Virus record (IMG/VR): IMGVR_UViG_3300020472_000021
Coordinates: 1-64,000 of that record
Length of the DNA: 64,000 bases
Reading direction: 5' to 3' (one strand)
DNA from: a virus
The notes under the pieces are model-generated. The model had not been told where the DNA came from. It did no database searches and saw only the letters and a list, made by a program, of their open reading frames with translations. A program made the translations under genes and the position numbers. Every line of letters begins with the position of its first letter. The first letter of the stretch is position 1. Of this stretch, positions 39,601 to 64,000 are shown in pieces.

Positions 39601-41826
39601 TATAAAATGAGAGATAGTATTATCCTTAGCAATCTTTATTGTATTTCCTGCTTCATCCTTAATAGTTTCACCAGATTCAAACTTTCCTGAAAGTGTTTTG
39701 ATAAAGAGGATCTTTCCAGTTGAATAAACACCATTAGATGCTCCTTCAATGACACCATAAGACTCACTAGATAATCCAAAGATATATTTACCTATTTCAA
39801 ATGTACCACCTGTTCTTGGTCTCTCAAGAATAATCTTAGTATAGAATTGAGGATCAAAATAAGAGAATCCAAAAGTAGTATTATATGCAGCACCACCTTG
39901 AGATAAACGTCCTTTAGAAAGAACAATATCAGAATCAGAATTGAATCCTAATCCTCTTTCTTGTAGTACAAAGTTACTAGGCTTAGCAGTTCCTATTACA
40001 GGAGTAATAGTCTCGCTATAATCTACAATAAATCCTAAACCTAATTCAGCAGCTACTTCATTTGAAGCATCAGCAGATGTAAAGAATATCCTTCTTTGTT
40101 TACCAGGATCACCTAAATCTTTCTCTGTTAATAATGCTTCAAGCTCATCCTTACTTCCACTAACAGTTAACTCTAAGTAGAATACTGAGGTATTAGGTTC
40201 AATAAGTGGTTTATTAACCTTAGCAAATGCTAATGATTTAATTGAACTAGTACCTGTTGGAGTATTAGCATCATCTCTTTTTTTAATAAAATAAAGAGTT
40301 CCTAATAAACTTGCAAAGTTAGAATCATCTATAGATGCAAGTGTATTAGAGGTACTTGTTACTTGAATAGTAATAGTTTTTATACCATCATTAGAAGATA
40401 GTATAGTACCTCTCTTATTAGTAGTCTGTCTATGATCAGTTGCTGCTTCTGTACCATTTAAACCTACAGTACCATCATTAAATGAAGAATATAAAAATAC
40501 TGTTGGGTATGAAGTTAGGTCGGAACCCTCTTGGTTAAGAGGAACACTTCCATAAACATTGTTTATACTATAAGTAGGTAATCCTTTAGTCTTTAATGTT
40601 ACATTATCACTAGCAAGACTTTCTTTTGCTTTATCAACTGTTAAATATTTGGTTTCTTTATTAACAATTTCATATCCTTTAATATATGCTTTACCAGGTC
40701 CAATGCTGGCAACCATCTTCTTAGATGCATCAGCAGCAGATAATCCGTTATAAAGTCCTAGATCATCAGCAGCATATATGCCCTGATTACCATCTTTCTG
40801 TGCATATTCTCTTATGTCAGTTGTAAAACTGTCTACTACATAATCTCCACTCTCATCAAATGTTCTACGAGCAAGAGTTTGTTCTAATAAATTATAATCT
40901 GTTGGAGATACTTTCTTTTGTACAACTCCTCTAGAAACTCTAAGAAGTTCTATGAAGTTTTTATCTGTGATTGTATCAAGAGAAAATTCTTTTAATGTAA
41001 GACCAATCTTTAATCTATGAGCACCAGGTGCAGTAGCATTAGAAGATCCTATTGAATTATCATATAATGATGCATCTTCTTCAGGAGTTATAATATCTTC
41101 AACAATAGTAAATCCAATCTTTGCAGATGGTTTGTCGTAATATTCATCAATGACAAGAAGATTAGAATCGTTACGAACAAAATAACCATTAATGAAGTAA
41201 ATACCTTCTTCTACTTTAACAGCAGAACCATATCCCATTGCAGGACTTTCAAGTGAAGTAACCTCGCTAGTATCAGGGTTAGTTACTTGAATACTCGTAG
41301 GAAGTACACTACCATCTGTACCTACCACGAGTAAAGGAGTATTGACACCATCAACAACTTCTAGAGTCTCACCTTGTCTAAAAGTAGACTCAGTATTGGA
41401 ATTACCACTATTAAGATAATTGACAAAGACTGTATCAGCTGATGCTTCTGTTGCTAGTTTCGTTGCTAGTATCGTTCCTACAACACCAGAAGTTATCCCT
41501 TTCAGTTGTTGTCCAACTAATAGAGATATATCGTATTTCTTATAAACAATCTCTCCACCTTCGTTAATTGCTACTTCTGAAACAGAAGATAGTTTAACGT
41601 AATCTAATTTAGTGTTGAGACCGACCTCTCCAGGAATGACAAGTTCACCCTGTTTAAAGGCATACTTACCAAAAGATTCAATCTGATTCTGTAGAATAGA
41701 TTGAACCTGCGTTAATTCTCTACCCTGTATAGAGTAACCAGGACGAAATAGAATTTTATAAAAATTCTTGTTTACGTCAAAGTCCTCGTAATAAGGGCTT
41801 ACATTTAAGTTCGTCTTTTGTGGCAT
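33700..41826 (-). CDS. Giant baseplate or tail structural protein, DUF4815-like (2708 residues)
   Basis: The N-terminus has the DUF4815 hallmark (NVSPYYEDFDVNKNFYKILF, then GRELTQVQSILQNQIESFGKYAFKQGELVIPG), which cyanophages carry at the place where T4 has genes 9 and 10. The central region contains a helical block around residues 1360-1430 (KLEKRVERLEFYTTLSILEQQALNMQ). C-terminal parts include GYGYTEAPSVVV repeats. It may be the distal baseplate wedge, like gp10, joining fibres to the baseplate. The exact T4 counterpart is not certain. A CTAAATA element lies about 35 bases upstream. Confidence 0.78.
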   Translation of the reverse strand: MPQKTNLNVSPYYEDFDVNKNFYKILFRPGYSIQGRELTQVQSILQNQIESFGKYAFKQGELVIPGEVGLNTKLDYVKLSSVSEVAINEGGEIVYKKYDISLLVGQQLKGITSGVVGTILATKLATEASADTVFVNYLNSGNSNTESTFRQGETLEVVDGVNTPLLVVGTDGSVLPTSIQVTNPDTSEVTSLESPAMGYGSAVKVEEGIYFINGYFVRNDSNLLVIDEYYDKPSAKIGFTIVEDIITPEEDASLYDNSIGSSNATAPGAHRLKIGLTLKEFSLDTITDKNFIELLRVSRGVVQKKVSPTDYNLLEQTLARRTFDESGDYVVDSFTTDIREYAQKDGNQGIYAADDLGLYNGLSAADASKKMVASIGPGKAYIKGYEIVNKETKYLTVDKAKESLASDNVTLKTKGLPTYSINNVYGSVPLNQEGSDLTSYPTVFLYSSFNDGTVGLNGTEAATDHRQTTNKRGTILSSNDGIKTITIQVTSTSNTLASIDDSNFASLLGTLYFIKKRDDANTPTGTSSIKSLAFAKVNKPLIEPNTSVFYLELTVSGSKDELEALLTEKDLGDPGKQRRIFFTSADASNEVAAELGLGFIVDYSETITPVIGTAKPSNFVLQERGLGFNSDSDIVLSKGRLSQGGAAYNTTFGFSYFDPQFYTKIILERPRTGGTFEIGKYIFGLSSESYGVIEGASNGVYSTGKILFIKTLSGKFESGETIKDEAGNTIKIAKDNTISHFIVQKGGLGYNDDSALTINGVDYDNSVITIDRIGSSGKIYSCEVLNRAGLNVTYAQPPAVTVKNGPGTAAGDAAAVLPVLVRNAVTTYTPANVKSVGCQYGSGGANKFTADIVVNDRSFSDIKDVTEYTFFGSNGYNFIESTSFSADASKELQQGDIVQFSDSNNDLVRAIVQYATEPKGSAKTRIYLDTVLPADVNNTNIVRLRPKAGKTVAGTLVYPTGSKQVQKISAGGNDTKIKYFFRRDFVAETSTGGGLITFAAQLPYGTQRFTAFSEENYIVTVLNPGGAPDIAAGDIIYLPPDSVEITSATDTASGLTSGSITLQLPSNYFGGDPNNYGTFPKLKLTATLEVSNAKPRLKTSVSNKRIIVPSSGDRVIPFRGTDYDTEVIAITSYSDAYKLRYVYEGTSSQPPEVDSAGNLIVGTDVTDRFTFDNGQRDTIYDVSRIVIKPGAQATTGQLVIGFDYFEQSQGDFCTIDSYLHEAGVPEDEIPTFDSNVHGMVELKNVLDFRPKVDSTSIIAGFQDVSSLANTSGAFSGAGAVVTSTPAPDSNLEYTFSFSTVQYLDRIDGIFLNKKGEFVIKQGNSSLNPSKPDPIADAVPLFYAYIPAYTKTTKDVRITPVDNKRYTMRDIGKLEKRVERLEFYTTLSILEQQALNMQIKDEIGMDRFKSGFFVDNFETHGLGNLKSLDYQCAIDSQQSVLRPQSKEDSVSLEEVNAREDQRAVSGYKKSGDIITLPYTSFSLLGNDFASKTINPNPFVVLQYVGDSVISPAIDQWYDQGIEPLVVDTNTNLYSIFLAKDHVSESFSSLYNSFVCNWVGTSPSFTAINSLGEVATQQAAASVNSASVASSSNVSPQNNEVGKGIQTKTVDGKIVSTALQFFARSQAIKFVVNRLKPNTKISVFLEGRNVNRWVNPDLRFTGAAGNSPSAFNGDVVTDNNGNASGIILLPAGQPPRENATWSGDVDTVAYDTVAEEIRVTTGVKTFRFTSSATDADKSTVDTYAEVKYYATGILPENPSSIVSTRPAYFKANEGVQIIDNNTDNPVRPNPLAQTFKVENFDGGVFVTGADLFFSKKSGDIPVKVYISNVDGDKPGKNVVPGTEKVLAPSTYIKVYTNGNVNVTRGESATGVSSAASGPIQKVIDRNGVDLVATASGVYTLTNEQVYTLVLSNHNGKSFNQNEDLTIPSVTLANNTNATELKLTIAKDSGKLSEIKVTAVGQNYDSALLTIESPQLPGGSTATASIFVSGGKVYNTEVLLTGYGYTEAPSVVVKGIGNGAGGCEITTAIEIDTPAVRMGVATDQTGVTNSTIPTYFEFDYPVYLQNDTEYAFAVETDSIDYELWASKLGDTDVSTSTVITSQPSLGSVYKSQNVDNWTEDIFEDLKFKLYRAEFNVTRPAELLLKNGDLGYTLLSKNPFETNASAATSASAKLFKNNNKIIKVNHRDNGFEDTGKSYVFYRSATEVAGITADNLNTNLFQVDNGGVDSYTITSASQASGNAIGGGTTTYASHNRKYEILYPQVQYLTTGGTKIETSVKTTNVVPVDSTTTNYVSYARSSDYEKTFLNEPHYFTNQKFIASKINETMNSLNESLTYKLLLTSTVSHLSPVVDLSSASIKTVSNRVENGSGQEDRFGRKDQILEFYPVYKFNLTGNGGTAITSNQTITGDTSKASGTIAAVNSSEVVVRVKTSQYFQKGERIRLSVQSTVTDNNTVTVNTYPQEVITSIADAATIVARNPSTITQVYDSPSYGILGTSQQWDSNSKELTVRTDTQPINDNFTDRIIDSADYNRNPIIASQTPDIFRVGDIVKYPDQVDDEAYYLQVGKVTYTNGLDFIPENTSKNGSSIAKYVTKEVGISNPATNVNVKLTVNVKDISNIEVLYRIKKAASQENFEDIDWQYFNSTGVPDQSEVANSENTISGVVEKQSSYQELSYSASDIAEFSSFAVKVVMKSVDPAYVSKIQDLRAVASF

Positions 41827-56960: not shown

Positions 56961-57139
56961 TTTAAATGTGATGTACCTGTGTCCATAAATTCTGCCATCT
57001 TCTGATTGATAGCATCCATCTTTGCCTCCACAGACTCTGGCGTTGCCATAACCCTGTATAAGACTTCATCTCTCGTTGAGAGTTCTGATAGCATTGTCGA
57101 TACTTGATCCCACAAATGATCAGAACCCACGCCTTTCAT
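56957..57139 (-). CDS. Small hypothetical protein (60 residues)
   Basis: From the ATG at 57139 (a GTG start at 57145 is also possible). Predicted helical, acidic, no transmembrane segment. The start lies within six bases of the end of the 44-residue gene, and the stop overlaps the next start. The function is unknown. Confidence 0.6.
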   Translation of the reverse strand: MKGVGSDHLWDQVSTMLSELSTRDEVLYRVMATPESVEAKMDAINQKMAEFMDTGTSHLK

Positions 57140-57141
57140 GC

Positions 57142-57276
57142 TCACTTGCCCTGCCCTCTGTATCTTTTACGAGCACCATTGCGAGAGGATGCTGAGAGTT
57201 TTGTGTTCTTACTATTACCCTGCCTAGTTACCTTAGCAGGTGGTTTGATGTAAGTGTCGTTGTTATAAAGTGCCAT
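57142..57276 (-). CDS. Small basic protein (44 residues)
   Basis: A 44-codon gene ending in KLSASSRNGARKRYRGQGK. The strongly basic C-terminus, ending in R-K-R-Y-R-G-Q-G, resembles a short peptide that I believe is conserved near cyanophage baseplate genes; it could bind nucleic acid or an acidic virion surface. The role is not known. Confidence 0.65.
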   Translation of the reverse strand: MALYNNDTYIKPPAKVTRQGNSKNTKLSASSRNGARKRYRGQGK

Positions 57277-57277
57277 G

Positions 57278-57691
57278 TTAGCCTGATCTACGTGTTCCTA
57301 TGTGTATTGTAGCACCAATACCAGGTACTTGGCAAGTCCTTTGTTGGGAAGTGTTACCACATACACTATAATCCCCGACCTGTGCTATAGGTCTTCCATT
57401 AAACTTAACCTTCTGACATTTCAGATCATCATCATTAAATGTTCGTGATGTTGCAGTACAACCTGCTAAGGTTCTCGGAACTCCTGGAACTGCTAGTGGG
57501 GTTGCAGCACTGTTATATGCTTGTAATGGTTGTCCTTCAATAGAAATCTTACCACCTGGAACTCTACCAATTCCTGTGGTTCTAGCAACATTAGGTGCAG
57601 GTGTACCTCCTAATGCAAGAGGGTTATAGAAACAATTAGCGTCAAACGACTGCGTATCTAAAGTTCCTGGATGTACTATCTGTAATGCCAT
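57278..57691 (-). CDS. PAAR-like protein, candidate baseplate spike tip (gp5.4-like)
   Basis: 137 residues. The C-terminal part, FNGRPIAQVGDYSVCGNTSQQRTCQVPGIG (split over about residues 97-130), has the GxxxAxxGD...C...C...G arrangement of PAAR proteins that sharpen phage spikes and type VI tips. The N-terminal part is variable. T4 has its PAAR protein gp5.4 close to gp6, and gp25 and gp6 lie just downstream here. The match is partial. Confidence 0.5.
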   Translation of the reverse strand: MALQIVHPGTLDTQSFDANCFYNPLALGGTPAPNVARTTGIGRVPGGKISIEGQPLQAYNSAATPLAVPGVPRTLAGCTATSRTFNDDDLKCQKVKFNGRPIAQVGDYSVCGNTSQQRTCQVPGIGATIHIGTRRSG

Positions 57692-57924
57692 TACCTTATT
57701 CTATGTCCGAATTTTACTAAGTCTGTTTTAAGTCCTTCGACATTATTATGCAAGTAATCTAAAGTATCAGAGAGACTCTCGTGTTCATTCGACGTTGGTC
57801 GTCGGTATAGTAACGACGGCTGCTCGAGCTGGGATATCCTCTGCTCTAGTGTGATGCACTTCTCTGACAGCATCAGGAGTGCCTGTTCCAATTTCTTCTG
57901 ATTTGCTAATAACTCTTCCATCAT
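57691..57924 (-). CDS. Coiled-coil protein (77 residues)
   Basis: From the ATG at 57924, chosen because GTGGAG lies 6 bases upstream. Residues 1-35 form a long amphipathic helix (MEELLANQKKLEQALLMLSE), and the end forms a second one (LDYLHNNVEGLKTDLVKF). It overlaps the previous gene by 140 bases and the PAAR-like gene by one base. The function is unknown; a baseplate accessory role fits the location. Confidence 0.6.
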   Translation of the reverse strand: MMEELLANQKKLEQALLMLSEKCITLEQRISQLEQPSLLYRRPTSNEHESLSDTLDYLHNNVEGLKTDLVKFGHRIR

Positions 57925-58033
57925 TTTGATCTCCACGTAAGAAGGCGTTTGCGGCACGACTCTCGAATTCATCACAGAAGTTATCAAAGTCATTCAGAAT
58001 GCCTTCATAATCTAGCTCAGGTTTTTTAGTCAT
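57785..58033 (-). CDS. Small acidic hypothetical protein (82 residues)
   Basis: The first 38 residues (TKKPELDYEGILNDFDNFCD) look like an acidic helical protein. The last 45 residues overlap the coiled-coil gene in another frame and are of low complexity. Its ATG at 58033 has no strong ribosome site. A CTAAATA element lies about 58 bases upstream, so it may be first in the late group that leads to gp25. Confidence 0.5.
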   Translation of the reverse strand: MTKKPELDYEGILNDFDNFCDEFESRAANAFLRGDQNDGRVISKSEEIGTGTPDAVREVHHTRAEDIPARAAVVTIPTTNVE

Positions 58034-58062
58034 TTTTTACCGCGGAAATTTTTTTCAAATTT

Positions 58063-58081
58063 ATGGTTTTAAAAAAACCAT
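58063..58081. other. Short perfect inverted repeat
   Basis: ATGGTTTT-AAA-AAAACCAT in the 157-base gap between the acidic small gene and the GIY-YIG-like gene. It is flanked on both sides by copies of TTTCAAATTTAT. AT-rich, with no clear T-tract direction, so it may be a weak terminator or a protein site. Confidence 0.45.
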
Positions 58082-58090
58082 TTTCAAATT

Positions 58091-58097
58091 TATTTAG
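58091..58097 (-). promoter_or_regulatory. Late-promoter-like element CTAAATA
   Basis: CTAAATA on the minus strand, 58 bases before the ATG at 58033 and next to the inverted repeat. It would mark the start of the late structural block. Confidence 0.45.
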
Positions 58098-58190
58098 CTG
58101 TCGTCTGGATACTTTTGTAGGTTAGCTCTTTTGGATTTTCGCTCGGGCTTAAGGGGGTAGGGGGCGCACACCCCAATCACTGCAAATCTG

Positions 58191-58892
58191 TCACCGTGTT
58201 GCGATCCACTGTGGATCTGTGGTGACACATCCGACAGGTGCAAATCCTGTGAGTGTGCGATAATCCCAAATGAATTTCAATTTCTGTTCCTTAATCGGTC
58301 CACCTCTGCGTCCTGTCATGTCTGCGGTTGGTTGGTCTATGGCGTTCAATTTGAATTTAACAGGTGAATTCTTTGCAGTCTCACCGACCCAACCTGATTT
58401 CCATGCGTCTGGTTTGCCGTGTCTGTCATATGATTTTAATGCAAGGCGTGTCATAAATTTGTCTAGCATGGCACGTGTCATTACAAACCACTCATTGCCA
58501 CCTGCCTGTTCAGAATAAAAATGCTTATAACGCTCAGGCACTTTATGGTCATGTCCATGTAGTGTTGAATATCCTTGCTTACGCAGTAGCATGTGAATCC
58601 ACTCTTCGGACCAACCACAATTATTCACTGCGAGCATGTCAATAATAATTTGGTCACCAGCGAGTTTAGTCCGTGACCCCTGCATGATTTCCCATGCAGC
58701 AGATTCGCCACCAGCAGCAAGACCAATTTTGACAGCGACGTATTGTGACTTGTCATTAGTCACGGCGTTGTCCTTTGATGTCCAAACGTAAATGCTGCCT
58801 GGTGCGAACTTAAGATTTCCAGGTTGCAAGTGTGAAGGATCTGCTACGCTTCCGAACTTGTGACCTTTGGGGAGTTCTGTTCTTGTTGGCAT
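58191..58892 (-). CDS. GIY-YIG / T5orf172-like protein
   Basis: 233 residues from the ATG at 58892. The segments SIYVWTS (about residues 32-38), YVAVKIGLA (about 50-58), EEWIHMLLRKQGY (about 100-112) and HFYSEQAGGNEWFV (about 126-139) resemble the T5orf172 / MUG113 branch of GIY-YIG nuclease-like domains. The C-terminal part is basic (KPDAWKSGWVG). It could be a DNA endonuclease or a homing-type protein; catalytic residues are not certain. It is the first gene of the non-structural region. Confidence 0.45.
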   Translation of the reverse strand: MPTRTELPKGHKFGSVADPSHLQPGNLKFAPGSIYVWTSKDNAVTNDKSQYVAVKIGLAAGGESAAWEIMQGSRTKLAGDQIIIDMLAVNNCGWSEEWIHMLLRKQGYSTLHGHDHKVPERYKHFYSEQAGGNEWFVMTRAMLDKFMTRLALKSYDRHGKPDAWKSGWVGETAKNSPVKFKLNAIDQPTADMTGRRGGPIKEQKLKFIWDYRTLTGFAPVGCVTTDPQWIATR

Positions 58893-58919
58893 GATGTAGA
58901 GAGAAAGAGAGTTGAACGA

Positions 58920-58951
58920 CAAAAAAAATCAGACCGCTTAGTGGCGGTCTG
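58920..58951 (-). terminator. Intrinsic terminator whose loop holds the stop codon of the gene
   Basis: On the minus strand CAGACCGC pairs with GCGGTCTG around loop CACTAA, followed by eight Ts. The TAA (58938-58940) of the 55-residue gene lies in the loop, so the terminator overlaps the last three codons. Confidence 0.9.
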
Positions 58952-59105
58952 AAATATACCAAGTTCCACCTGTGGGAACTTCGAGGGTTTCAAAATTGCG
59001 TCTTGCCATTGCGTCAAGGGCAGCACGTACAACTGGATCTTTAGATGCGGTCTCGTTCATTAAGACCTGTCCGTTGTAGAAAGATTTGAGTTCTTTGTTG
59101 TTCAT
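58938..59105 (-). CDS. Small hypothetical protein (55 residues), UTR-less unit
   Basis: A 55-codon gene with an acid and base mix, ending in GGTWYISDRH. The TATACT -10 box ends exactly 6 bases before the ATG, so the mRNA should begin at or near the start codon. The stop codon lies inside the terminator loop. The transcript should be barely longer than the gene. No family is recognised. Confidence 0.7.
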   Translation of the reverse strand: MNNKELKSFYNGQVLMNETASKDPVVRAALDAMARRNFETLEVPTGGTWYISDRH

Positions 59106-59111
59106 GTCTTA

Positions 59112-59155
59112 AGTATAAACAGAAAATGCCCCGAATGGGGGCATTAGTGGACACT
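59112..59155 (-). promoter_or_regulatory. Early-type promoter (leaderless), variant box
   Basis: -10 TATACT at 59112-59117; 27 bases further upstream is CCACTA preceded by GTGT, close to the box at 63053. The terminator hairpin of the previous gene (59125-59145) lies between the box and the -10. Confidence 0.55.
59121..59145 (-). terminator. Terminator hairpin of the 46-residue gene, nested in the next promoter
   Basis: AATGCCCC-CATTC-GGGGCATT followed by TTTTC on the minus strand. It directly precedes the TATACT -10 box of the next gene. Confidence 0.7.
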
Positions 59156-59294
59156 ATTCCGATTGGCATAGTGTGGGGTCAATCTTGCATAGTTGATCCA
59201 TTTTATTTTGTTGGATGGTATCAACCTTTTTTATTGCAGTCGTTCCCACTTGGAGACCGACGACTAAGACAACGGCGACAAGAATAAATCTCAT
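59154..59294 (-). CDS. Small secreted or membrane-anchored protein (46 residues)
   Basis: 46 codons from the ATG at 59294, overlapping the previous stop as ATGA. The N-terminal hydrophobic stretch RFILVAVVLVVGLQVGTTA should be a signal peptide or a single span; the short polar tail has two cysteines (CKIDPTLC). It could act in the periplasm or inner membrane. No family is recognised. Confidence 0.65.
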   Translation of the reverse strand: MRFILVAVVLVVGLQVGTTAIKKVDTIQQNKMDQLCKIDPTLCQSE

Positions 59295-59446
59295 GCGTGG
59301 TTCAATGTGAATTCACAACGAATGCCAGCACCTTGATAAAATGCGAGCATGTCCTGTGCTTTCGCAAAACTGCTAAACGTTATATGCCTTGGTTGACCTT
59401 GGTCGAATGGCATCCAATAGCGAATAGTGTTTTTTGATGATTGCAT
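59291..59446 (-). CDS. Small hypothetical protein (51 residues)
   Basis: From the ATG at 59446: QSSKNTIRYWMPFDQGQPRH followed by a helical part and an end with GIRCEFTLNHA. A longer in-frame form would start inside the preceding terminator and promoter, so the shorter form is preferred. The predicted -10 box lies 24 bases upstream. Its pattern (one alpha-beta unit) is unrecognised. Confidence 0.6.
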   Translation of the reverse strand: MQSSKNTIRYWMPFDQGQPRHITFSSFAKAQDMLAFYQGAGIRCEFTLNHA

Positions 59447-59469
59447 AGAGTGATTTGCTGAACAATGTA

Positions 59470-59512
59470 AGTATAGGACATAACAGGCACGGCGCAAGGT
59501 CCTTAGTGCCAG
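59470..59512 (-). promoter_or_regulatory. Early-type promoter, box CTGGCAC
   Basis: -10 TATACT at 59470-59475, 30 bases, then CTGGCAC at 59506-59512 with AAA before it on the minus strand. It begins right after the 13-bp terminator of the gene upstream. The left half of the palindrome is lost. Confidence 0.6.
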
Positions 59513-59515
59513 TTT

Positions 59516-59554
59516 GAAAAATGCCATACCTTCTGTCCTGGGAAGGTATGGCAT
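59516..59554 (-). terminator. Strong intrinsic terminator with 13-bp stem
   Basis: ATGCCATACCTTC and GAAGGTATGGCAT are perfect complements around an 8-base loop, followed by TTTTT on the minus strand. It should stop transcription after the 101-residue gene. Confidence 0.9.
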
Positions 59555-59565
59555 GGTGTATGATG

Positions 59566-59871
59566 TCAAGTCAGACTCATGTGAGTAAGGACCTGAGAGA
59601 TCATGACGGCATCCTGTCTGAATTGTTTTTTGTATGCCGCTGCGATGCAGTGAAAATTCACCAGCATGTCTTCGACTTCAGAGTCTGGAAGTTCGATGTA
59701 AAGGATTTTGCATTCTTCGCGCTCACCCTTCCAGAATCCTTCGCCGTCGATAAATGTTCCGTACTCAAGGAGTGGCATCACTTCGCGTCTGATGAAATCA
59801 TCCATCATTGCATCGGTGACTCTGCCATTGTCGGGAATGTTGCGTCCCATTGTCAATTCGAGTCGGATCAT
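59566..59871 (-). CDS. Hypothetical protein (101 residues)
   Basis: Acidic alpha-beta protein, starting IRLELTMGRNIPDNGRVTDAM and containing DGEGFWKGEREECKILYIEL. The pattern of strands and helices could form a compact domain. No family is recognised. It has its own predicted promoter (59895-59937) and a strong terminator. Confidence 0.72.
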   Translation of the reverse strand: MIRLELTMGRNIPDNGRVTDAMMDDFIRREVMPLLEYGTFIDGEGFWKGEREECKILYIELPDSEVEDMLVNFHCIAAAYKKQFRQDAVMISQVLTHMSLT

Positions 59872-59894
59872 AGAAAGTTCGTTGGTACATTACA

Positions 59895-59937
59895 AGTCTA
59901 ACAAAAAACCCTCACCGTGTGGGGCGAGGGTGTCCAG
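59895..59937 (-). promoter_or_regulatory. Early-type promoter, box AACTGGACA
   Basis: -10-like TAGACT at 59895-59900, then 30 bases, then CTGGACA at 59931-59937 on the minus strand. The spacing equals that of the other members. The terminator of the upstream gene lies inside the 30 bases. The left half (CAATA) is weakly palindromic. Confidence 0.5.
59902..59931 (-). terminator. Intrinsic terminator of the 52-residue gene, nested in the next promoter
   Basis: ACCCTC pairs with GAGGGT on the minus strand with a GC-rich interior, followed by six Ts. Confidence 0.8.
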
Positions 59938-59942
59938 TTATT

Positions 59943-60101
59943 CTATTGGCACATCTCCTCGAATCTTTTGATTGCGAGTTTTGCTGCCTTGTCTGCGATC
60001 TCATCCTCAGAATAGACACCTGTGTTTAACCTTGCTTCAAGTTCAGTTAAGCAGTCGTCGAAAATTCCTTCAAGGAGTGATTCGTTTGCAAGTGTGGACA
60101 T
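59943..60101 (-). CDS. Small acidic helical protein (52 residues)
   Basis: 52 codons; the ATG at 60101 is preceded by GGAG 6 bases upstream, a clear ribosome site. Two helices with many acids (NESLLEGIFDDCLTELEARL; DEIADKAAKLAIKRFEEM). It looks like a small protein-binding inhibitor or regulator, but this is a guess. Its predicted mRNA has a leader of about 70 bases. Confidence 0.68.
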   Translation of the reverse strand: MSTLANESLLEGIFDDCLTELEARLNTGVYSEDEIADKAAKLAIKRFEEMCQ

Positions 60102-60178
60102 AAGGTCTCCGATTGAAAAATGTGTGAGGGGCGTAGTCAGTGCGTCCGTAGACCGTTGCTTAAACCCTTCACTCTTTT

Positions 60179-60232
60179 AATATAAACCATTTTGAAACAG
60201 AATGGTGAAACTGTGTGCCAGTTTGTCAACTG
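60179..60232 (-). promoter_or_regulatory. Early-type promoter with full palindrome
   Basis: -10 TATATT at 60179-60184, 27 bases, CACACA at 60212-60217, then the palindrome CAGTT-GACA-AACTG at 60219-60232 on the minus strand. The consensus member of the family. Confidence 0.8.
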
Positions 60233-60233
60233 G

Positions 60234-60245
60234 ATTCGGGCCGGA
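60234..60245. repeat. 12-base exact repeat, copy 1 (ATTCGGGCCGGA)
   Basis: The GC-rich sequence ATTCGGGCCGGA occurs here and at 61447-61458, both in non-coding gaps between transcription units. It is unusual in an AT-rich genome. Confidence 0.6.
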
Positions 60246-60247
60246 TT

Positions 60248-60433
60248 TTATGCGAATAGAGGTCGCATAAAATCTTTGAATGCTTCGCGCTTGAAATCTG
60301 CAAGGTGTCGCATCTCATCTTCAGAGAGAATCAGGTCGTAACCCTCACCCCTCATCTCATCATAACATGCTTGAGAGATGGACTTGTCTGTGATGTCGTA
60401 ATCAGCAAGCGAGACGTGTTTGAAAAATGACAT
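60248..60433 (-). CDS. Hypothetical protein (61 residues)
   Basis: From the ATG at 60433, overlapping the stop of the upstream gene (TGATG). SFFKHVSLADYDITDKSISQ at the start, a helical middle and a basic, aromatic end. No family is recognised. It is the second gene of a two-gene operon. Confidence 0.68.
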   Translation of the reverse strand: MSFFKHVSLADYDITDKSISQACYDEMRGEGYDLILSEDEMRHLADFKREAFKDFMRPLFA

Positions 60434-60678
60434 CAGCACATCCCCCAATATTGGAGGTCTGTGCCAGCGTGCATTTCGTTGAACATGCTTTGGATTTCGT
60501 AGTAGTCTGCGTCATCCCATAGCACGCCGTCCTCAGTACTCAAAAATCCACAGTCTTCTTTGATTACTGTTTTGAATTCTGTGAATCCACAGCACTCAAG
60601 AGCGAGACGGTAAAGGCACTCTGTATTCTGAATCCAGAGAGCGACGTTCCAAGTCTCGTAATCTTTCCAACCGTTCAT
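60433..60678 (-). CDS. Hypothetical protein with KDYETWNVALWIQN motif (81 residues)
   Basis: The N-terminal KDYETWNVALWIQNTE is the start pattern of a short domain widespread in cyanobacteria and their phages (probably the DUF7249 group), of unknown function. It contains several tryptophans and cysteines. It has a predicted promoter with the -10 box 29 bases upstream of the ATG. Confidence 0.72.
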   Translation of the reverse strand: MNGWKDYETWNVALWIQNTECLYRLALECCGFTEFKTVIKEDCGFLSTEDGVLWDDADYYEIQSMFNEMHAGTDLQYWGMC

Positions 60679-60706
60679 AAAATGCTTTGATTTGTTTGAC
60701 TCTTTA

Positions 60707-60765
60707 AATATAAACGATTTTGAGTGAGAATAGGAGAAGTGTGTGCCACTAATATAATTGGCACG
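60707..60765 (-). promoter_or_regulatory. Early-type promoter, weak palindrome
   Basis: -10 TATATT at 60707-60712, 27 bases, CACACA at 60740-60745 on the minus strand. The palindrome is degenerate (CAATT-N4-TAGTG). TGCCA and TGGCA flank the site as an outer inverted repeat. The core between box and -10 shares TCAAAAT and GTTTATATT with the 60179 site. Confidence 0.7.
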
Positions 60766-60826
60766 AGGTCAGCCAGAATTTTGTTTCATTATGTAACGAT
60801 ATTGTCCAAATGGGTCGATCTGTGTT

Positions 60827-60832
60827 TATAAT
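60827..60832 (+). promoter_or_regulatory. Plus-strand -10 element TATAAT
   Basis: TATAAT 25 bases before the ATG at 60858, with TTGTCC about 19 bases further upstream as a possible -35. It does not have the CACACA box and may be read directly by the host polymerase. Confidence 0.5.
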
Positions 60833-60857
60833 GAGTGAGTACAAACGTAAATCACGT

Positions 60858-61187
60858 ATGCCAACCGCAACCGTCTCCAAGTCAACCGTAGCAAAACCAG
60901 CACGCAAGACAAGGACACGCAAAGCACCTGCTAAAAAAGCAGCAGTACGCAAAGTCACCGTCACAACCTTCAAAGGTGGCAAGGCAGTCGCAAAGGTCAC
61001 AACCCTGAAACGTCCAAGCACTCGCAACCTCATTTCAGGTGATCGCTATCTCAAGGATTTTCAAACACGTTGGGCAATCCATTCATTTGAGATCCAAGAA
61101 TTAGTCAAGGACTTTCGCAAGGGTTTCGATTTTGTCACTCCCTATCACGCTCAACTCGTAAATCAAGTTAAGCAGTGGACAGTCTAA
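60858..61187 (+). CDS. Basic histone-H1-like DNA-binding protein (109 residues)
   Basis: The first 50 residues are rich in Lys, Arg, Ala, Thr and Pro (for example KPARKTRTRKAPAKKAAVRK), as in the tails of bacterial H1-like proteins, and are followed by TTFKGGKAVAKVTTLKRP. The rest (about residues 58-109) is a compact, helical domain with Trp, Tyr and Phe. It could condense or protect phage or host DNA. The start at 60858 is preferred because an upstream frame-open ATG at 60831 overlaps the -10 box. It is transcribed against its neighbours and ends before an intrinsic terminator. Confidence 0.72.
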   Translation: MPTATVSKSTVAKPARKTRTRKAPAKKAAVRKVTVTTFKGGKAVAKVTTLKRPSTRNLISGDRYLKDFQTRWAIHSFEIQELVKDFRKGFDFVTPYHAQLVNQVKQWTV

Positions 61188-61194
61188 CAAGTTG

Positions 61195-61233
61195 CACACA
61201 AGCACCCCACAGGGTGCTTTTTTCATGTATTAT
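61195..61233 (+). promoter_or_regulatory. Plus-strand early-type promoter, terminator nested inside
   Basis: CACACA at 61195-61200, 27 bases, then TATTAT at 61228-61233, the same spacing as on the minus strand. A terminator hairpin (61201-61218) fills the spacer. GTTG before the box is a partial palindrome half. Confidence 0.7.
61201..61223 (+). terminator. Intrinsic terminator of the histone-like gene
   Basis: AGCACCC-CACA-GGGTGCT followed by six Ts, 14 bases after the stop codon. Confidence 0.92.
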
Positions 61234-61256
61234 TAAAGAGTAAAGCAATTCACCCT

Positions 61257-61406
61257 ATGATGACCTACAACACAGATTTCGTTGAAGCACGTGCAGAGGA
61301 CATCTTCGATTCATGGGTCACTCAGTTTTTCAGAGACCTAACACCTGCGGATGAGTCAGCACTCTACTCACTCGCTCTCGACACAGCAATCGAAGAGTCA
61401 AACTAA
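61257..61406 (+). CDS. Small acidic protein (49 residues)
   Basis: 49 codons from the ATG at 61257 (a second ATG follows directly). Acidic, helical, with aromatic residues (DIFDSWVTQFFRDL). The -10 box TATTAT lies 23 bases upstream. Codon use is richer in G and C than the rest of the window. No family is recognised. Confidence 0.68.
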   Translation: MMTYNTDFVEARAEDIFDSWVTQFFRDLTPADESALYSLALDTAIEESN

Positions 61407-61413
61407 AAAATCC

Positions 61414-61436
61414 ACCCCTCGAAAGAGGGGTATTTT
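61414..61436 (+). terminator. Intrinsic terminator of the 49-residue gene
   Basis: ACCCCTC-GAAA-GAGGGGT with a GAAA tetraloop, followed by ATTTTA. It lies 7 bases after the stop codon. Confidence 0.85.
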
Positions 61437-61446
61437 AATGCAAAAA

Positions 61447-61458
61447 ATTCGGGCCGGA
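61447..61458. repeat. 12-base exact repeat, copy 2 (ATTCGGGCCGGA)
   Basis: Second copy of the repeat at 60234-60245, in the convergent gap between the plus-strand gene and the minus-strand gene at 61492. Confidence 0.6.
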
Positions 61459-61476
61459 CCGATAGTACATATGCAC

Positions 61477-61503
61477 TAAAAAACGGACTCCTTAGAGTCC
61501 GTT
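61477..61503 (-). terminator. Intrinsic terminator with stop codon in the loop
   Basis: On the minus strand AACGGACTC pairs with GAGTCCGTT around a four-base loop TAAG, followed by six Ts. TAA (61492-61494) is the stop codon of the 60-residue gene. Confidence 0.92.
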
Positions 61504-61674
61504 CATGAAATCTGAAATCGCTTCCAAATATTCTTCGTAAGTTGAATAACGATTTTTGAAATCGTTGGGAACCTCACGCTTTAAATGTGATTGGCAAGAC
61601 TCGTTGATCTCGCGAACTGTGTAACCCTTTTCGAGGAGTGAAGGAAAGAACTCTTGAAGATTTGATTTATTCAT
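61492..61674 (-). CDS. Small hypothetical protein (60 residues), UTR-less unit
   Basis: From the ATG at 61674, whose -10 TATAAT ends exactly 6 bases upstream, so the mRNA should be leaderless; the stop is within the terminator loop. Helical protein NKSNLQEFFPSLLEKGYTVR and a basic middle. No family is recognised. Confidence 0.72.
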   Translation of the reverse strand: MNKSNLQEFFPSLLEKGYTVREINESCQSHLKREVPNDFKNRYSTYEEYLEAISDFMNGL

Positions 61675-61680
61675 ATCCTT

Positions 61681-61735
61681 ATTATACACACGCAACCGAC
61701 CCAAATAGGAAAAATGTGTGACAGTTCCTCAACTG
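61681..61735 (-). promoter_or_regulatory. Early-type promoter, leaderless
   Basis: -10 TATAAT at 61681-61686, 28 bases, CACACA at 61715-61720, palindrome CAGTT-GAGG-AACTG at 61722-61735. The stop codon of the upstream gene (TGA at 61729-61731) lies in its centre. Confidence 0.8.
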
Positions 61736-62037
61736 TCTTGGGCGGCTGACTTTTGATGTACTGGAAATGATAGACTCTCACCAGGTTCTAGACCATATGT
61801 GACAGTAGTGACACTGCCCACTAGATCATCAAGCGTCTCTGTATCAAATGTACATTCAATCTCATTCAGTAACTCATCCTCTGAGTAATTAGAAAAATCC
61901 TCCGTGAGTGTCTGAGATACAAATGAATACATGTCCTTATGATCCATGCTATCAATGCACAGTTCAACATAACGATCAATAAGATCTGAACACTGTGCGG
62001 TTGTGAGTTTGTAAGGCATTGAGTTTGAATCAGACAT
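61729..62037 (-). CDS. Acidic hypothetical protein (102 residues)
   Basis: 102 residues from the ATG at 62037, chosen because a -10 TATAAT box lies exactly 6 bases upstream. Acidic, helical at the start (AQCSDLIDRYVELCIDSMDHKD) and beta-like at the end. The stop codon is in the palindrome of the next promoter. No family is recognised. Confidence 0.7.
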   Translation of the reverse strand: MSDSNSMPYKLTTAQCSDLIDRYVELCIDSMDHKDMYSFVSQTLTEDFSNYSEDELLNEIECTFDTETLDDLVGSVTTVTYGLEPGESLSFPVHQKSAAQDS

Positions 62038-62043
62038 GATACT

Positions 62044-62107
62044 ATTATAACACACCGTAGGCACATTGCAACAAAAATCCAGCTGACCGTGTGCAGTTTG
62101 TCTAGTG
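62044..62107 (-). promoter_or_regulatory. Early-type promoter, leaderless, with longer spacer
   Basis: -10 TATAAT at 62044-62049, then 38 bases instead of 27, then CACACG at 62088-62093 and a CACTA-GACA-AACTG palindrome at 62094-62107. The extra 11 bases equal about one helix turn. A second direct repeat GTGTGCC flanks it. Confidence 0.6.
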
Positions 62108-62125
62108 GCACACGGTGTGTTGATT

Positions 62126-62284
62126 TTATCTGTAACTCGGTGTAATATAGTATTCTCCGTCGTAGTAATCCGATTCAATCCAATTCTTTATACCTACATC
62201 TTCTCCATAAGAGTTTATTAACTCTTCTCTTTGTTCATTTAACTCATTAATGAAAAATTGTTGATTCTTGTTAACATTTTCCAT
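62126..62284 (-). CDS. Small acidic protein (52 residues)
   Basis: 52 codons from the ATG at 62284 (helix with NQQFFINELNEQREELINSY, then acid- and tyrosine-rich end). A TATAAT at 62311-62316 lies 27 bases upstream, but no CACACA box is visible at the expected distance, so it may follow another promoter type. No family is recognised. Confidence 0.65.
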   Translation of the reverse strand: MENVNKNQQFFINELNEQREELINSYGEDVGIKNWIESDYYDGEYYITPSYR

Positions 62285-62310
62285 AATAGATTAGAGCGAG
62301 GTTAGTATTA

Positions 62311-62316
62311 ATTATA
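62311..62316 (-). promoter_or_regulatory. -10 element TATAAT without the early-type box
   Basis: TATAAT on the minus strand, 27 bases before the ATG at 62284, with no consensus -35. Confidence 0.45.
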
Positions 62317-62364
62317 ACACAACATGTATTAAACACGTTCTGTTAAATCTTAAGTTTTTATAAA

Positions 62365-62407
62365 AACAAAAAAACGCACTTTCTGAAAAAACTCAAAAAG
62401 TGCGTTT
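62365..62407 (-). terminator. Intrinsic terminator with 11-bp stem
   Basis: AAACGCACTTT and AAAGTGCGTTT are perfect complements on the minus strand, with an A/T loop, followed by seven Ts. Confidence 0.9.
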
Positions 62408-62414
62408 CTTAAGT

Positions 62415-62762
62415 TTATGCTATTTCGAGACTTTCAGAATTATGTATTATCATACCATCAAAGAATGGTACAACTTTACCTCTGAAACTTACGAACCACT
62501 CAAATTGCTTTTGAAACACACCTGCACCGTATTTGACCTCATCAAGTAATGCATTTAGTCTGGACTTGGTAGTCACAGTCTCCCATCCGCATGATGATAT
62601 CTTTAATGCTTGCGTAGTGTGGTCAAATGTAGCGATGTTGTGACCATGTAGATAAACAGAACTGCAATTAGAAGCATCATTGTATCTGACCATTGTATTT
62701 GATCCAGACCAGTTGCCTTTGTTGCTAACTGCGAAGTTCATTTGTCTTTCAAGTTTACGCAT
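62415..62762 (-). CDS. Hypothetical protein (115 residues)
   Basis: A soluble, beta-rich protein with a GNWSGSNTMVRYND motif near the start, LHGHNIATFD in the middle and TTKSRLNALLDEV with FQKQFEWFV near the end. Such SGSNT / TKSRLNAL proteins recur in cyanophage genomes; none has a known function to my knowledge. The ATG at 62762 is tentative; 62741 is possible, as is 62816, which is coupled to the upstream stop (TAGTGATG). Confidence 0.65.
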   Translation of the reverse strand: MRKLERQMNFAVSNKGNWSGSNTMVRYNDASNCSSVYLHGHNIATFDHTTQALKISSCGWETVTTKSRLNALLDEVKYGAGVFQKQFEWFVSFRGKVVPFFDGMIIHNSESLEIA

Positions 62763-62818
62763 GAATGTAAGAAGGAATAGGTTAATAAAAGTTTTCAACA
62801 GGGTGTGGAAAAACATCA

Positions 62819-63007
62819 CTAAACCACAGGGTCTAGTGATGCTGTAACAGATGCGTCAAGTTTGGCATTTAATGTCCAAAGATTTTGACACTCATCGTCA
62901 TCCTGAATGAAAGGACAGTCAAGAGCACGATCCAAAGAGGCGACGTATGCTTGTGCTTCTTCGATTGTGAGTTCAAGTGTGATCATGTTGGGAACTTTGT
63001 TTGACAT
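62819..63007 (-). CDS. Small acidic protein (62 residues)
   Basis: From the ATG at 63007, with the -10 TATAAT ending exactly 6 bases upstream (leaderless). ITLELTIEEAQAYVASLDRAL suggests a small alpha-beta protein; two cysteines lie in CPFIQDDDEC. No family is recognised. Confidence 0.72.
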   Translation of the reverse strand: MSNKVPNMITLELTIEEAQAYVASLDRALDCPFIQDDDECQNLWTLNAKLDASVTASLDPVV

Positions 63008-63013
63008 GTTCTT

Positions 63014-63066
63014 ATTATAGACGAGATTGGCAACAGTGGGGAGAATAGTGGACAGTTTCTCAACTG
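63014..63066 (-). promoter_or_regulatory. Early-type promoter, leaderless
   Basis: -10 TATAAT at 63014-63019, about 26 bases, CCACTA in place of CACACA, palindrome CAGTT-GAGA-AACTG at 63053-63066. Confidence 0.75.
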
Positions 63067-63068
63067 GT

Positions 63069-63101
63069 CTACCTATCTCTTTGCCACTGCTGCTCAACCA
63101 T
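63069..63101 (-). other. Ten-codon leader-like open frame between two promoters
   Basis: An ATG at 63101, only 4 bases after a -10 box, opens a frame of ten codons (MVEQQWQRDR) closing at 63069, just before the palindrome of the next promoter. It could be a leader peptide or simply a spacer. Confidence 0.3.
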
Positions 63102-63105
63102 ATCT

Positions 63106-63159
63106 ATTATATACGATCACCCTACCTAATCTACCTACTGTGTGCCAGTTTAATAACTG
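63106..63159 (-). promoter_or_regulatory. Early-type promoter with full palindrome
   Basis: -10 TATAAT at 63106-63111, 27 bases, CACACA at 63139-63144, palindrome CAGTT-ATTA-AACTG at 63146-63159. The stop codon of the upstream gene (63150-63152) is in the centre. It is tandem to the 63014 promoter. Confidence 0.78.
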
Positions 63160-63305
63160 TCCTCCTCCCAACTCTTATATTCCTTGAACCGTGCTACCTT
63201 CTTTTTACCTTGTCTCTTGACATTCTTAATATTATATCCATAATCCTCGATATCTTCGTCTAATTGATTGTACTTACTATGATCTAACTTAGTAGGTTTA
63301 GTCAT
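63150..63305 (-). CDS. Small charged protein (51 residues)
   Basis: 51 codons from the ATG at 63305: acidic N-terminal part (LDEDIEDYGYN), basic middle (KNVKRQGKKKVARFKEYK). AATAAATA lies 24 bases upstream, a possible late element. It ends within the next promoter's palindrome. The pattern resembles very small nucleic-acid binding or regulatory peptides; the family is not recognised. Confidence 0.65.
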   Translation of the reverse strand: MTKPTKLDHSKYNQLDEDIEDYGYNIKNVKRQGKKKVARFKEYKSWEEDSY

Positions 63306-63327
63306 TGGTATGAGTAAAGATTGTGTA

Positions 63328-63567
63328 CTATTTATTTTCAGTTAGAGCACCAGATTTGATGCTTTGATGTAATAATTTCCCTACACTTTCCTTGTTTGAT
63401 ATACAATTAAGGAATGATTGTGTAAATTCTAATACATTTTCACAGTTAAATTCGTATTCTTTGTTTGTATTACTGTTATATGTTATTATAACACTTTTTT
63501 CAGTGAATTTAACTGTTTTTACGGCAGATGAGTTTAAATCATCAAAAATACCTGTTATTTTAACCAT
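63328..63567 (-). CDS. KTSC-like domain protein (79 residues)
   Basis: SSAVKTVKF (about residues 13-21), the central IITYNSNTNKEYEFNC strands (27-42) and ESVGKLLHQSIKSG (about 60-73) resemble the KTSC domain (S-S-x-I...Y...V.F..G..Y.Y...S.G..FN..I), a small domain found with phage and nucleic-acid proteins. The match is partial. The predicted promoter lies about 120 bases upstream, giving a long A/T-rich leader. Confidence 0.5.
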   Translation of the reverse strand: MVKITGIFDDLNSSAVKTVKFTEKSVIITYNSNTNKEYEFNCENVLEFTQSFLNCISNKESVGKLLHQSIKSGALTENK

Positions 63568-63687
63568 TTGTGATTAAATTGAAAGTTTTAAATTGTTAAA
63601 AAACTCAAAAAGTCAAAAATACAACTTTTTTAAAATGTTGAAAAACTTAAAAAGTGAGATTTCCGAGTTTTTTGGATTTATGTGTTT

Positions 63688-63741
63688 ATTATACTCCTCC
63701 TCAGAGGGATTTGGTGGGTTTCTGTGCCACTTTGAGAACTG
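63688..63741 (-). promoter_or_regulatory. Early-type promoter, long leader
   Basis: -10 TATAAT at 63688-63693, 27 bases, CACAGA at 63721-63726, palindrome CAGTT-CTCA-AAGTG at 63728-63741. The 120-base leader before the KTSC-like gene contains two ACTTTTT-rich direct repeats. Confidence 0.75.
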
Positions 63742-63756
63742 TCACACTACTCCTTG

Positions 63757-64000
63757 ACTTTCGGTAGGATGCACGCTAAGACAACAAGAAGAGAGCACGT
63801 TACCTATATTTTTTTAACCATTTCTAAATGATTCAGAGTTATCCACAACCACTGTGGAAAACCCTAGTCATACCAATACACGGAAGGTTACTAAAGGATA
63901 GTATCCTGAGAACAATTCTCAACTGTTCACACTGACTGCTTTCTCAACCATTTTGGTACATATATTAACAACAATGCACCTCCCCAAAACACTCCAAGTA
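63757..64000. other. Gene-free stretch with palindromes and DnaA-box-like sites
   Basis: No credible gene is seen in these 244 bases. They contain an A/T-rich tract (63810-63818), a facing pair of DnaA-box-like 9-mers, and two perfect palindromes: GGATAGTATCC at 63896-63906 and GAGAA-CAA-TTCTC at 63908-63920. CAGTTGAGAATTG on the minus strand overlaps the second one and recalls the early-promoter palindrome, but no -10 at the usual spacing follows. Confidence 0.6.
63839..63861. promoter_or_regulatory. Facing DnaA-box-like pair
   Basis: TTATCCACA at 63839-63847 and TGTGGAAAA at 63853-63861 (the reverse complement of TTTTCCACA, the form seen in cyanobacteria), five bases apart. An A/T-rich tract lies 20-30 bases away. 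Another TGTGGAAAA lies at 62804-62812, inside the gap before the 115-residue gene. Confidence 0.5.

Follow-up and report, generated by a model that had tools for sequence, protein, structure and literature searches.

A palindrome at a fixed distance from TATAAT boxes ahead of small genes in T4-like cyanophages

Repeated palindromes in a cluster of small genes

The window analysed here comprises positions 1–64,000 of the 67,144-base viral record IMGVR_UViG_3300020472_000021, whose closest named relatives are T4-like Synechococcus phages, with S-B43 at the top, at ~71–73% DNA identity in the baseplate genes. The region from 58 to 64 kb is a series of very small genes of unknown families, chiefly on the minus strand, among which a palindrome recurs at a fixed distance upstream of a −10 box (Table 1). 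An earlier note on this DNA had described the repeats as a family of promoters of one design. All 11 sites that it listed were recovered, as were its four exact copies of the core CAGTT-N4-AACTG (60219, 61722, 63053 and 63146). The distance from CACACA or CACAGA to the −10 box is 27 nucleotides (nt) at 60179, 60707, the plus-strand site, 63106 and 63688, 28 nt at 61681 and ~38 nt at 62044, again as described. The observation of a repeated promoter is confirmed.

The operator model used for scanning was trained on 120 IMG/VR loci, with the window data excluded. To avoid circularity, these loci were taken from a search of IMG/VR for the exact core with TATAWT 21–35 nt away. At least 120 stretches in viral contigs carry this combination, and among the matches listed the spacing falls sharply at 28–30 nt despite the wider range allowed. 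Iteration of the model from these loci yielded 988 distinct sites at ~3% false positives. A strict scan, requiring a palindrome by the operator model and a −10 box at a gap of 28–30 nt, found seven sites in the window. Shuffles of the whole window gave a mean of 0.09 strict sites (200 shuffles, maximum 2), shuffles of 59000–63800 gave a mean of 0.001 (1000 shuffles, maximum 1), and the window at the wrong gaps of 18–20, 43–45 and 50–52 nt gave none. Matches to the core with at most one mismatch number 10 in the window against 3.4 expected, and no shuffle attained 10. The sites could in principle be an artefact of chance or of composition in an AT-rich region, and an exact palindrome at 40818 does stand without a promoter. 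However, the shuffles, the IMG/VR stretches with exact copies and the complete genomes described below, eleven cyanophages being positive and T4, HTVC008M, P-SSP7 and S-CBS2 negative, leave practically no probability for chance, which the shuffles and the complete genomes already refute.

Table 1. Palindromes (operators), −10 boxes and adjoining gene starts in the window; ATG positions are also given relative to the predicted transcription start (+1).
Site	Strand	Operator	−10 box	Gap (nt)	Remarks on operator and spacer	Downstream gene
1	minus	59147..59170	TATACT 59112–59117	29	spacer hairpin GCCCC-N-GGGGC	predicted +1 = 59105 = ATG of open reading frame (ORF) 58938–59105, leaderless
2	minus	59505..59528	TATACT 59470–59475	29		ATG 59446 (+18)
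3	minus	59930..59953	−10-like TAGACT 59895–59900	29	weaker; spacer with terminator hairpin and T-run	ATG 59871 (+18) of DUF3574-like gene
4	minus	60214..60237	TATATT 60179–60184	29	exact core	
5	minus	60742..60765	TATATT 60707–60712	29		ATG 60678 (+23) of DUF7249 gene
6	plus	61175..61198	−10-like TATTAT 61228–61233	29	left half degenerate; spacer with terminator hairpin and T-run	ATG 61257 (+18)
7	minus	61717..61740	TATAAT 61681–61686	30	exact core	predicted +1 = 61674 = ATG of ORF 61492–61674, leaderless
8	minus	62089..62112	TATAAT 62044–62049	~39 (one turn more)	atypical; right arm without N before CACA	predicted +1 = 62037 = ATG of DUF7326 gene, leaderless
9	minus	63048..63071	TATAAT 63014–63019	28	exact core	predicted +1 = 63007 = ATG of ORF 62819–63007, leaderless
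10	minus	63141..63164	TATAAT 63106–63111	29	exact core; tandem with site 9	
11	minus	63723..63746	TATAAT 63688–63693	29	top score in window	upstream of ORF 63328–63567

The weaker sites of the window, those at 59895, 61195 (plus strand), 60707 and 62044, have a degenerate half-site, −10 box or gap, and most of their features still fit. Past the end of the window, at 64977 of the record, the plus strand has another probable site of this type, with a terminator hairpin in its spacer. A fifth exact core (40818–40831) is located far from the cluster and has no −10 box at the right distance. Within the cluster, the plus-strand gene 60858–61187 runs opposite to most of its neighbours and encodes a Lys/Arg-rich protein of 109 amino acids, possibly DNA-binding, with a weak match to the histone H1-like HC2 (E 0.037).

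Anatomy of the element and of the gene starts

The consensus of the 988 sites is a symmetric 24-bp palindrome, TGTG[CA]CA[GC]TT-N4-AA[CG]TG[GT]CACA, with about equally conserved arms. With the −10 box placed at −12 to −7, the palindrome is centred near −53.5 and its lower edge is at ~−42, which leaves 28–30 nt to TATAAT. The position near −53 proposed in the earlier note therefore holds, but the unit drawn there was too short, as a TGTG arm pairing with CACA completes it. When operators were scored regardless of the −10 box, an exact TATAWT occurred at gaps of 28, 29 and 30 nt in 56, 171 and 82 cases, respectively, vs. ~1 case per position elsewhere. Besides the dominant gaps of 28–30 nt there are minor classes at 39–40 and 24–25 nt, a sign that the operator is kept at a set distance from the −10 box, in phase with the helix. 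A −35 box is usually absent. TTGACA is matched at four or fewer positions in 402 of 454 sites and at 5–6 of 6 in the other 52, and the strict-scan sites of the window match it at no more than three of six positions, in agreement with the missing −35 box noted before. Near-perfect TTGACA (5–6 of 6) occurs in 6 of the 12 sites with a gap of 23–25 nt. Among strong IMG/VR operators, 56 of 380 have a −10 box on both sides vs. none at the control distance, showing that a single palindrome can serve two divergent promoters. A palindrome of P-SSM2 (66590–66615) scores as an operator both ways and has −10-like boxes on either side.

Symmetric palindromes are typical of repressor sites, and the site always adjoins the promoter, as would be expected of an operator through which a repressor shuts early genes off later, the promoters being otherwise ordinary. 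However, a location from −42 to −65 is outside the part of a promoter that is usually blocked, and neither the rigid distance to the −10 box nor the usual lack of a −35 box is required by a repressor. A repressor operator is thus an unlikely explanation.

The spacers between the palindrome and the −10 box contain a G+C-rich hairpin in 116 of 454 sites (26%; shuffled spacers 3%) and a hairpin with a T-run in 59 (13%; shuffled spacers 0%), and hairpins are seen at sites 1, 3 and 6 of the window. Transcription of the gene upstream may thus often end within the promoter. This layout is like that of a terminator followed by an early promoter, and the palindrome itself, rather than being a protein site, might be an RNA or DNA structure, such as a terminator or a stem-loop from a mobile promoter cassette of the PeSL type. 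However, the hairpins sit in the spacer, apart from the palindrome, the arms of which are weak and have no T-run. A stem would allow compensatory changes, yet the letters themselves are conserved, and Rfam gave no match in the window from 57000 to 64000. A structural role for the palindrome is therefore very unlikely, and even less probable than a repressor site.

The predicted start site carries A at +1 in 63% and T at +2 in 74% of the sites. Analysis of 534 sites showed that ATG lies exactly at +1 in 48, of which 37 open at least 35 codons, or within +15 to +24, a range in which almost every ATG opens a long frame; few ATGs fall in between. Both classes are present in the window, with four small minus-strand genes starting at the predicted +1 (sites 1, 7, 8 and 9) and four starts after short leaders, at +18 to +23 (sites 2, 3, 5 and 6). 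This double locking of the gene starts to the predicted +1 is strong sequence-based evidence that the promoters are real. A literature search found no description of leaderless cyanophage messages.

Distribution among phages

The named complete genomes, unlike the IMG/VR set, were not selected by the motif. The scan of complete cyanophage genomes that the earlier note had called for found strict sites in 11 of the 11 T4-like cyanophages tested: Syn9 (4), S-PM2 (15), P-SSM2 (21), P-HM2 (11), S-RSM4 (10), S-B43 (11), the freshwater phage S-CRM01 (13), P-SSM4 (13), Syn19 (9), S-SKS1 (15) and S-TIM5 (9). These 4–21 sites per genome compare with 0.1–0.4 after shuffling, and the counts at wrong gaps in the named genomes are mostly 0–1.3 (2.3 in P-SSM4). 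The strict scan gave no site in T4, in HTVC008M, a Pelagibacter phage of the same family according to its record, in the T7-like P-SSP7 or in the siphovirus cyanophage S-CBS2; shuffled genomes gave 0–0.4 sites. A simple pattern was likewise negative in T4, KVP40 and Ma-LMM01. In P-SSM2, a k-mer scan of the stretches ahead of TATA[ATC]T, with no motif supplied, gave both arms of the palindrome in register, as GTGCCAG and TGGCACAC. The spread takes in T4-like phages of marine and freshwater cyanobacteria.

In Syn9, P-SSM2, S-PM2 and P-HM2, the sites stand in front of series of small unknown genes. In Syn9, 14 sites are found at ~5–10% false positives, seven of them at 43–53 kb, where the palindrome, spacer and TATAAT stand ahead of small genes, as they also do at 127, 148 and 162 kb. 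The half-sites differ by phage, being TGGCACA in P-SSM2, TGTCC-like in Syn9, S-RSM4 and S-B43, and TGGCC(C/T)A in S-TIM5. In S-TIM5, which belongs to a different cyanophage lineage, the variant TGGCCCA is found at 162–171 kb at the same distance, suggesting possible co-evolution of operator and regulator. Near-perfect operators are most numerous in S-CRM01 (NC_015569), with 24 at ≥18 bits, mostly at 78–170 kb, and the −10 boxes of this phage are often TATGCT or TATGAT.

The putative reader and the relation to known promoters

Four host genomes, WH7803, RCC307, WH5701 and one other, have no sites above a reversed-pattern control. A looser pattern gave per-genome counts in hosts of the same order as its reversed-pattern control. 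In 400 kb of WH7803, matches fall short of the shuffled control at all scores up to 12 bits and are absent at ≥15 bits, whereas the phages have 6–24 sites at ≥18 bits. Among 300 genomes of the host family, six have a single near-match each, with no common promoter context, and an exact scan of ten host genomes for the half-site with TATAAT found none. Two candidates for a host regulon were rejected: the recurrent match TGTCACTTGGGCAAGTGACA falls inside a coding frame, and GGCCACTTAGCAAAGTGGCA represents one orthologous spacer. The regulon thus appears to be phage-only.

These results bear on the idea that a cyanobacterial transcription factor, hijacked at infection, reads the palindrome, which is a version of the activator explanation given below and overlaps with it in confidence. 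Expression of early genes depends on a factor present in the cell from the start, the element goes with cyanobacteria as hosts, in the sea and in fresh water, over different T4-like lineages and is lacking in the Pelagibacter phage HTVC008M, and no shared phage regulator was found. However, the host scans give such a factor no regulon, and S-TIM5, hosted by WH 8102, prefers another half-site. A hijacked host factor is therefore possible but rather doubtful. Phage candidates were also rejected. Syn9 gp230 is annotated as a transcriptional regulator; it lacks any Pfam domain, and neither S-B43 nor S-TIM5 contains a clear match to it. The small core proteins belong to PHROGs of unknown function, save one gp33-like late regulator. 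The only families that track the distribution of the element are photosynthesis and HLIP genes and two proteins that are unlikely candidates, one large and structural, the other of 64 amino acids and unknown function. The earlier note had proposed a phage or a host dimer as the reader; the hosts show no excess of sites, and the phages have yielded no regulator either. The reader may be a fast-evolving or virion-borne phage protein or a host protein without a comparable regulon.

The elements probably act as promoters for small genes, themselves probably early, in T4-like cyanophages, and a dimeric activator would turn them on by standing in for the −35 contact. A cyanobacterial sigma-70-type RNA polymerase would use these promoters, and a dimeric DNA-binding protein on the 24-bp palindrome would do the work of a −35 box by recruiting or positioning that polymerase. 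Transcription would begin 6–7 nt after TATAAT at the conserved A-T, and genes would begin at +1 or after a leader of ~15–23 nt. The activator may be made by the phage, as a virion-borne or immediate-early protein, or be the host factor considered above. The rigid distance, the missing −35 box, the symmetry of the operator and its layout in either direction favour a dimeric activator in contact with the host polymerase over a repressor or an RNA structure. The earlier suggestion of an activator site instead of a plain sigma-70 promoter thus remains the best fit, while the binding of a protein, activation by that binding, the early timing and the origin of the protein are what we infer from sequence. 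Several points weigh against the activator. The IMG/VR training loci were picked by the motif with TATAWT nearby, so the rates from that set are inflated. In the named phages, 32% of the strong operators have no −10 box at this distance. Phyletic profiles (BLAST and hidden Markov models) found no regulator, and a domain search found no LuxR-type or RHH domain and one sub-threshold HTH_3 match, in P-SSM2 only.

Doron et al. are said to have described, in 2016, a novel regulatory element controlling the early genes of Syn9. As Syn9 carries the present element before its small-gene cluster, in copies more degenerate than those in the window, the element has likely been seen there already, and the two are probably identical. 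The statement in the earlier note that no description of this exact element was known is therefore doubtful, although a literature search found none. The portions consulted of Sullivan et al. 2010 (PMC3037559) and of a 2010 review of T4-like cyanophages (PMC2984593) describe sigma-70-like early promoters and mention no such palindrome. The full palindrome, the spread to S-TIM5 and the freshwater S-CRM01, the absence from hosts, the divergent layout and the leaderless starts may be new.

In NtcA promoters, a dimer site, GTA-N8-TAC, lies upstream of the −10 box without a −35 box and is usually centred near −41.5. The present element is alike in having a dimer-type site without a −35 box, but its sequence is different, its centre is near −53.5, and GTA-N8-TAC is absent from the 988-site consensus. 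In T4 middle promoters, an activator site replaces the −35 contact of the host sigma-70 polymerase, as is proposed here. However, the MotA box lies near −30 and is both short and asymmetric, in comparison with the symmetric and more distant operator here. According to the review, cyanomyoviruses have no motA, asiA, alt, modA or modB (PMC2984593). A T4 late promoter (TATAAATA, no upstream element) was rejected, as the −10 consensus here is TATAAT and there is an upstream operator. Activator-dependent sigma-70 promoters of class I/II share the fixed, helix-phased operator distance and the poor or missing −35 box. PeSL promoter-terminator cassettes are known from T4-type phages (Arbiol 2010 and Comeau 2014, cited in PMC4503421), and the citing paper judges their density in S-PM2 to be much lower than in other T4-like phages. 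The apparent likeness is that an early promoter adjoins a terminator-type hairpin and that the pair recurs between small genes that are shuffled, but the hairpin occurs here at only about a quarter of the sites. To our knowledge, a 24-bp palindrome at a fixed distance from the −10 box is not a PeSL feature.

Taken jointly, and tentatively, these elements could be pan-cyanomyovirus early promoters, working in either direction, usually without a −35 box, and giving leaderless or short-leader messages. Their putative dimeric activator would be outside the known regulator families and would be carried in the virion or be a host protein without a regulon, and the full palindrome with the leaderless class would not have been described before. 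Abundant T4-like phages of marine cyanobacteria begin their takeover without the tools of T4; the element gives access to this step through sequence, and the operator could be used as bait to fish out the missing regulator. As the layout is fixed, promoters and gene starts become predictable in uncultured phages, and leaderless starts would correct many gene calls.

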